NCBI GenBank assembly: GCA_903822425.1
Contig: CAIJOY010000047.1
Span: 47,753 to 111,752, forward strand
DNA from: an uncultured Actinomycetes bacterium
GTDB lineage: Bacteria > Actinomycetota > Actinomycetes > Nanopelagicales > Nanopelagicaceae
Direction: 5' to 3'
DNA length: 64,000 nucleotides
Under the pieces are notes generated by a model. The model saw only the letters and a list, made by a program, of their open reading frames with translations, did no database searches and had not been told where the DNA came from. Positions 9,796 through 11,400 of this stretch are shown here, piece by piece (the stretch's first letter is position 1; every line of letters begins with the position of its first letter). The translations under genes and the position numbers were made by a program.

Positions 9796-11400
9796 GTGGC
9801 AAGATTGAATCTGATAACGTCTTTACCTATGCGAGCAAGGGTTATCTCTATATTTGTTGTTGTTGCTCTGCTGATTCCTATTACATCAGCGCACAGTCTT
9901 GGAAGCGTCTGGCCAGCTGTTCCATCTATTGGATTTTCATCTAGCGACAACAGCTTAGTTGAAACTAAATCTTACGTTACTGGCCTATCTTTTCCCGCAG
10001 GTGCAACGACCGGACTTTATTCAGAACGCGTCACTTGCAATTCGGTGGATGATCTTGCTTGTTCTCAAGTAAATTCAATATTTGCCCAAGCGATACTCCC
10101 TCCCTGCTCGACGCCTCAAGATGAAATGTGTGTGGAGTCTTTAGAGGTCACTGATGCAAGTGGTGTTTTACATAAAGCAACACTGGGTTATGAAGCACCC
10201 GGGGAAAGAATTCCTGCCAGCAAAGCTCGCAAAGTACCTGCTGGTGGCTCTGCAAGTGTGTGGCACGCTAAAGATTCTCTCAATTCAGCAGGTCTTGACG
10301 AATATGCAGTGAGCGTTAGTACCACTTTTCAGAACTACCAAAATAAGGGGTGTACTCAATATGTAACTGCCCCATGTGGATTCACTAGCGGATTTAGAGC
10401 GAGAGTTTTCCCCATTGCTCATGGGGCCATTACGGGCTCAAGCGAAACCTGCTTGTGGACAGAAGCCCAAGATTGCATTCGGGCAGCCGATTTTTCAGCA
10501 GGGGCTCGGGTTGCCCTTACTCTCAGAATTGATAATTCCTTAACTGGATTTCTTTTTGGACAAATGAAGAATGTGAATTTAGATGTCAAGCCACTTTCCA
10601 CTTCAGCAAATTTACTTCGCGTGGAGGCCAACCCCATCGATGTTCCGAAAATATATGCTTACGTTGCCAAGAGTGACTTAAGTAAGTATCCGAAAATTAT
10701 TGATTATTGGAAAGAGCGCCGCCAGCAATTGGCAGCCGATGATTTTACGAGTCCAAACACAATTGATACTGGTCCGGCCCCAGAATGGGCAATGAGTGAT
10801 TTTCTAGCATTTGAAGATCTAGTTAAGTCTGCTGAACTAGTAACCTCAATCTGGAGATTTGGTACACAATCCGGGACGGGCTCTGGAAGCCCCTGCTATG
10901 CAGATAAAAGCAAACTTCAAGGGCTAGTGACTACTAATGCACCAACTTATTTTCCAAACCCACCTACTTTCGTTAATGGCGAACTCATTTACAAAGTTGC
11001 TGGTGCTCACTATTTACAAGATGGCGTAACGCTCTTCAAGGGATCTTATGATCTTGTCCTACGCACTGATTTTGCGCGTTGTTTATACGGATTTACTAAA
11101 GCGCCAGTCCAGGCCAAAGTTTCAGTTGTTTCCACAGACGGTTCGGTGCAAGACATCGCGTCAGAAATCATTCGCGAAGATGATGCGCATGAATGGCTCT
11201 ACCTCAGCGCCAAGAACTTTACTTTCTCATCACCGACTATCAAAGTGAAGCTTTCACAAGTGGGTGCGCCAGCTGCCGCAGAAAAGGTTCCGGCAGCGCC
11301 AGCGAAGAAAACCACAACAATTACCTGCGTCAAAGGAAAGTTAACTAAAAAGGTAACTGCGGTTAAAGCCACATGCCCTACTGGCTATAAGAAGAAATAA
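9796..11400 (+). CDS. Large secreted protein with paired CX7C loops and Lys-rich C-terminal CVKGK...CPTGYKKK tail
   Basis: The 534-aa protein starts at GTG; an in-frame ATG at 9829 is an alternative. A hydrophobic signal segment ISIFVVVALLIPIT is followed by a likely cleavage region TSAHS. Four cysteine pairs with exactly seven residues between them lie near residues 81-89, 104-112, 176-184 and 219-227 (for example CNSVDDLAC and CSTPQDEMC), suggesting small disulfide loops in an exported beta-rich protein. An Ala/Pro/Lys linker leads to a tail ending TCPTGYKKK, with its own Cys pair. No enzyme motif is visible. The function is unknown; the tail may be a surface or wall-interaction module. Confidence 0.8.
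   Translation: MARLNLITSLPMRARVISIFVVVALLIPITSAHSLGSVWPAVPSIGFSSSDNSLVETKSYVTGLSFPAGATTGLYSERVTCNSVDDLACSQVNSIFAQAILPPCSTPQDEMCVESLEVTDASGVLHKATLGYEAPGERIPASKARKVPAGGSASVWHAKDSLNSAGLDEYAVSVSTTFQNYQNKGCTQYVTAPCGFTSGFRARVFPIAHGAITGSSETCLWTEAQDCIRAADFSAGARVALTLRIDNSLTGFLFGQMKNVNLDVKPLSTSANLLRVEANPIDVPKIYAYVAKSDLSKYPKIIDYWKERRQQLAADDFTSPNTIDTGPAPEWAMSDFLAFEDLVKSAELVTSIWRFGTQSGTGSGSPCYADKSKLQGLVTTNAPTYFPNPPTFVNGELIYKVAGAHYLQDGVTLFKGSYDLVLRTDFARCLYGFTKAPVQAKVSVVSTDGSVQDIASEIIREDDAHEWLYLSAKNFTFSSPTIKVKLSQVGAPAAAEKVPAAPAKKTTTITCVKGKLTKKVTAVKATCPTGYKKK

Follow-up and report, generated by a model that had tools for sequence, protein, structure and literature searches.

Several lineage-specific homology domains that recur at the C-termini of exported proteins are known already, including the LPXTG signals, the PEP-CTERM domains and the C-terminal domain (CTD) of the Type IX secretion system (T9SS). 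Ca. Nanopelagicales (acI), streamlined bacteria exposed to strong pressure from phages and grazers, rank with the most abundant bacteria of fresh water, and to our knowledge the construction of their surface is hardly known. The window analysed here, a stretch of 64,000 nucleotides from an uncultured member of the Nanopelagicaceae (assembly GCA_903822425.1, contig CAIJOY010000047.1), encodes an exported protein ending in a short basic tail, which recurs on unrelated exported proteins of this family and on proteins encoded by phages. A search of the literature on this tail, on acI surface proteins and on acI phages, conducted mostly outside subscription journals, found no description of such a module.

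The protein is encoded by the forward-strand ORF 9796..11400 (534 codons, GTG start), with Met12 (position 9829) as an alternative start. Its putative signal peptide MRARVISIFVVVALLIPITSA (9829..9891), delimited with a simple predictor of our own that places the cleavage before HSLG, can be read as a charged n-region, a hydrophobic h-region and a TSA site. The body (9892..11259) is β-rich according to paralogue alignment and AlphaFold modelling; the full-length model has a pLDDT of 86.8 and a pTM of 0.83, with the body modelled well. Neither Pfam nor NCBIfam offered a confident match for the body, and in a fold search of the full model against the PDB all alignments were poor (TM scores near 0.1) and none was acceptable; the Pfam family Phloem protein 2 (E = 0.007) was under the cut-off and was rejected. 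The cysteines of the body are conserved and even in number in an alignment of 51 full-length paralogues, which would be consistent with a disulfide-rich exported protein. Three C-x7-C pairs are present in the body (C67/C75, C90/C98 and C205/C213 in the numbering of the model).

The body is followed by an Ala/Pro/Lys linker (11260..11313), defined by orthologue alignment and by a pLDDT below 50 at its centre, and by the module TTITCVKGKLTKKVTAVKATCPTGYKKK (approximately 11314..11397), a basic two-stranded hairpin with a C-x15-C arrangement, the last residue of which is the C-terminus of the protein. The ORF ends in ...KKTTTITCVKGKLTKKVTAVKATCPTGYKKK, its 534-residue product in ...VPAAPAKKTTTITCVKGKLTKKVTAVKATCPTGYKKK, and the TCPTGYKKK tail that an earlier note had placed after the Ala/Pro/Lys linker is present as described. 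The orthologues of the protein share 67–73% identity; the length of the linker differs among the six aligned orthologues while the tail is retained, and we count this as a protein-level constraint on the tail.

The module, small and positively charged, comprises the last 28 residues of the window protein. In the 223 modules tabulated, both cysteines and the following proline and glycine are fixed because the search pattern required them; beyond the pattern, I-2, K+2, G+3, K+4, K+7, K+8, P+14 and the last three lysines are conserved in more than 90% of cases. Every synonymous codon occurs at the fixed Cys, Pro and Gly positions, which indicates conservation at the protein level and not recently copied DNA. 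When the distance between the cysteines was left free from 8 to 25 residues, the search returned 340 cases, some of them non-independent since the loci overlap; the spacing was 15 residues in 335 of these 340, and in 283 of them the C-terminus lay three residues past the Y/F. The net charge of the module ranges from 5 to 10, with a mean of about +8.

AlphaFold modelling of 98 tails predicted two strands, with pLDDT above 90 across most of the module; in the full-length model of the window protein, the hairpin has a pLDDT of about 90 and the linker is below 50. The module is therefore predicted to be an independently folded hairpin on a flexible linker, and a single disulfide probably links its two cysteines. 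VKOR usually serves as the disulfide oxidase partner in actinobacteria; it was found in just one of the 11 tail-rich genomes, so disulfide formation is not assured, and this weighs against the preferred explanation given below. In a survey of 24 genomes, VKOR is also missing from most genomes of the family, despite exported proteins rich in conserved paired cysteines. Searches of the isolated tail against Pfam and NCBIfam profiles revealed no family up to E = 1, and the best profile and fold hits of the module in the PDB (E = 0.2 and E = 3.1, respectively) do not count as matches.

The protein search revealed 15 copies of the tail in the genome containing the window (1.43 Mb), each of 27–31 codons and all situated at the 3′ ends of open frames; a profile built from these copies returned exactly 15 from the same genome (E from 9.5e-16 to 3.5e-13). 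More than 200 distinct tailed proteins were found outside this genome. Among 60 relatives, the tail occurs in 32 of the 37 genomes of the same family, in two of them by weak partial matches only, with 1 to 20 copies per tail-bearing genome, and in none of the 23 other families of the class. In a class-wide set of 395 genomes, 32 members of the family had the tail, as did a single genome from another family; several single-contig genomes of the family held 16 to 20 copies. Among 397 genomes representing the phylum, the only occurrences beyond the class were single copies in two genomes that belong to one genus. A 33-base pattern corresponding to PxCPxGYKKK-stop, searched over genomes of 84,980 species, matched at least 119 stretches; among the matches listed, nearly all records are freshwater actinobacterial, including Ca. 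Planktophila lacus MMS-21-148, IMCC19121 and IMCC26103, with some acidimicrobial records. These searches bear out the statement of the earlier note that such tails occur on other exported proteins of freshwater actinobacteria. Mostly, the module is restricted to one family of the Nanopelagicaceae type. Close relatives hold anywhere from 0 to 20 copies, so the group can do without the function of the module, which counts against the preferred explanation. Some records titled Bifidobacterium breve, Streptomyces griseus and Methylopumilus bear tailed freshwater-actinobacterial proteins (L094, L105, L107, L119, L123, L133 and L104), and we read these as mislabelled bins or foreign contigs.

After removal of the module, 258 carriers fell into 43 groups without detectable mutual similarity (152, 19, 18, 11, 5, 4 and 4 members, then many singles). 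The largest group is one family of β-rich bodies, including the window protein, and could suggest simple paralogy, with the tail marking one family of duplicated proteins; the 42 further groups, which carry different Pfam domains and have no detectable similarity, refute this reading. About 13 Pfam architectures are present among the carriers, with Trypsin, LRR_5, RCC1, FMN_bind, YHYH, Peripla_BP_6 (twice), SGNH, Flg_new with TIG, fn3, CAP, DUF3472, Laminin_G_3 and Ig-like domains. Within the genome of the window itself, a group of related β-rich proteins is accompanied by clearly different carriers: a trypsin-like protease (PF00089, E = 5.6e-13), a 467-residue coiled protein, and proteins of 296 and 196 residues without a Pfam match. 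Bodies of the SGNH, FMN_bind and Peripla_BP_6 types are known both with and without the module, which has been gained or lost on related bodies.

The carriers are also exported. The control genes in the comparisons that follow came from the stretches around the carriers and do not represent a random genome sample, and both signal-peptide rules are our own and not SignalP. With a simple rule, 74 of 78 carriers were positive compared to 181 of 581 non-carrier genes from these stretches (p = 5e-29), and in the genome of the window 11 of 13 carriers compared to 70 of 228 (p = 1.6e-4), the signal peptides of the two remaining carriers being evident by sequence. The enrichment among signal-peptide proteins that the earlier note proposed to look for is also seen with a second rule based on an N-terminal hydrophobic segment (214 of 218 carriers against 237 of 581 control genes); the four carriers lacking an export-type segment appear to be truncated or frame-shifted copies. 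No carrier has a predicted transmembrane segment beyond the signal peptide. The tail is accordingly not confined to direct homologues or to cytoplasmic proteins, either of which would have spoken against a surface role; the carriers comprise 43 unrelated groups, essentially all exported, as is expected of a portable surface-binding module.

The occurrence on unrelated exported proteins would also be compatible with a true C-terminal sorting signal, where a post-export enzyme cleaves the tail or links the protein to the envelope by a covalent bond, and the position of the module gives this reading some weight: in 205 of the 214 first-collected non-identical carriers (about 96%), the chain ends three to five residues past CPxG[YF], and the strongly fixed C-terminus noted above would suit a terminal recognition signal as well as a binding module. 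The position is mostly, but not exclusively, C-terminal. In one family of proteins of approximately 235–250 residues (L048, L050, L054, L056, L071 and L073), the module immediately follows the signal peptide (ANA-ATKTITCYKGKIIKKVTAVKPKCPTGF...) and so stands at the mature N-terminus; a 747-codon frame of IMCC19121 (L103:5760-8000) carries two or more modules one after another, two modules occur within one frame in G208, G226 and G168, and the YHYH protein has a variant module 20 residues before its end. These N-terminal, tandem and pre-terminal copies favour a binding domain rather than a signal for processing at the terminus. The IMCC19121 frame also contains a long repeat of PTPPNAPNQ-type units, placed before the tandem modules.

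The search for a cognate enzyme points in the same direction. The 223 modules have the basic end of LPXTG-type signals and neither the motif nor the hydrophobic stretch; the tail is basic and polar, with no C-terminal transmembrane helix of the PEP-CTERM type. Sortase (PF04203) is absent from 10 of the 11 tail-rich genomes, six of which are single-contig, with positive search controls, and this excludes the sortase route for most of them; the domain was found in the remaining tail-rich genome and in two tail-less genomes. Analysis of the neighbours of carriers revealed no candidate processing enzyme, and no enzyme gene recurs beside them beyond a shared syntenic block. This conserved block, beside one cluster of carriers, encodes an ECF-type sigma factor, a membrane protein and a further membrane protein. 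In five genomes (L214 (G000), L198, L201, L203 and L212), a cluster of tailed paralogues adjoins genes for an ECF-type sigma factor and for a single-pass anti-sigma-like membrane protein, and dedicated regulation of the cluster is possible. Considering these data, we regard a processed sorting signal as unlikely and prefer a portable module that serves in binding or anchoring. The suggestion of a sorting or surface tag made in the earlier note thus holds as far as recurrence on unrelated exported proteins is concerned, and is disfavoured for a sorting tag in the strict sense.

The module is present on phage-encoded proteins as well. The C-terminal pattern picked out 25 contigs in IMG/VR and a second pattern another five; 26 of these 30 contigs encode a signal-peptide protein of 560–580 residues with the tail, a few of these proteins being cut by the end of the contig or locus. 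Wherever the gene of the terminase large subunit is covered (phrog_2, E = 2e-16), the gene of the tailed protein lies directly downstream of it; L239:5739-7427 and L238:2965-4656 are example loci. The body of the phage protein is homologous to an S-layer-like protein of two hosts (G276 and G259), the copies of which end in a coiled coil (...NADVLKAIVSLIASINKQIAALQKALLKK and ...NKQIAALQKALLKK) without the module, and the phage protein continues into the module where the host homologues stop. The four other contigs encode a tailed trypsin-like protein with a signal peptide (L280:1134-2381, L278:6440-7453, L244:6229-7338 and L279). The neighbour genes in L278 and L280 are phage-like by reading, and L280 has a gene in common with the terminase-bearing L239. 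The S-layer-like phage protein is missing from named phage genome records, as is the tail.

Taken together, the data lead us to suggest, with moderate confidence, that the tail is a portable module that binds the envelope of its own cell non-covalently and retains the carrier at the cell surface. The tail would be a mini-domain of about 28 residues, a basic β-hairpin with an aromatic residue in the CPxG[YF] turn; a flexible Pro/Ala/Thr or coiled-coil linker would connect it with the carrier. Carriers would leave the cell through ordinary signal peptides; outside, the module would most likely bind an anionic component of the producer's own envelope in a non-covalent manner and would hold the carrier there, as other wall-binding modules do, and N-terminal and tandem copies suit such a binding domain. 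The anionic ligand might, as a guess, be a wall glycopolymer. Of 24 genomes, 23 encode LytR-CpsA-Psr ligases, which attach wall glycopolymers in other Gram-positives, and such a polymer would thus be at hand as a ligand, if unproven; these ligases are equally common with and without the tail, a point against the proposal.

The strong positive charge of the module and the proteases and lectin-like or LamG proteins among the carriers could also suit a module that binds an outside substrate (algal polysaccharide, DNA, polyphosphate or humic particles) instead of the producer's surface. Carriers of the Peripla_BP_6 and SGNH acyltransferase types, expected to act at the envelope of the producer, and the use of the module on the phage copy of an S-layer-like protein speak against this reading, which we consider rather unlikely. 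The location of the module at chain ends, C-terminal or N-terminal, might alternatively reflect a cap for stability or folding, where a disulfide hairpin with a basic end guards the termini from exopeptidases or aids folding, with no ligand involved; given that long flexible linkers leave the body uncapped and that the conserved lysines on both strands exceed the needs of a cap, such a role seems very improbable.

If the module is indeed a device for binding the envelope, freshwater actinobacteria would display surface proteins in a manner of their own, by means of 28 residues, and their phages would do the same, dressing infected cells with tailed S-layer-like and protease-like proteins; we put this forward as a tentative idea, possible rather than probable. 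Were it true, the phage proteins dressing infected cells could perhaps exclude competing phages. A one-line signature picks out as many as about 20 exported proteins in a small genome and gives a handle on many hypothetical proteins; the module makes the acI surface proteome testable and ties host and phage proteins together.

Like the module, the LPXTG/sortase signals are short, C-terminal, found on unrelated exported proteins and preceded by a Pro-rich linker; the module differs from them in having no LPXTG motif and no hydrophobic stretch, in the lack of a sortase in most tail-rich genomes, and in occurring also at N-termini and in tandem. The PEP-CTERM, GlyGly-CTERM and other exosortase/rhombosortase signals resemble it as lineage-restricted C-terminal domains of widely variable copy number, but they include a transmembrane helix and are served by a membrane enzyme of their own, whereas the module is soluble, contains cysteines and is predicted to be folded. 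The T9SS CTD is likewise C-terminal on many unrelated exported proteins, but it is a far larger β-sandwich of Bacteroidota, unlike the 28-residue hairpin of actinobacteria. LysM, GW, SH3b and CWB2 are, like the module, portable, terminal or repeated, linker-joined and envelope-binding (the binding of the module being presumed), and the module is smaller than these, with a single probable disulfide and no Pfam or NCBIfam counterpart. The S-layer-like protein of Nanopelagicaceae shares its body with the phage tailed protein, and its host copies lack the module. From the known C-terminal domains, the module thus differs in being a soluble hairpin with N-terminal and tandem copies, in the missing sortase and in its phage-encoded carriers.
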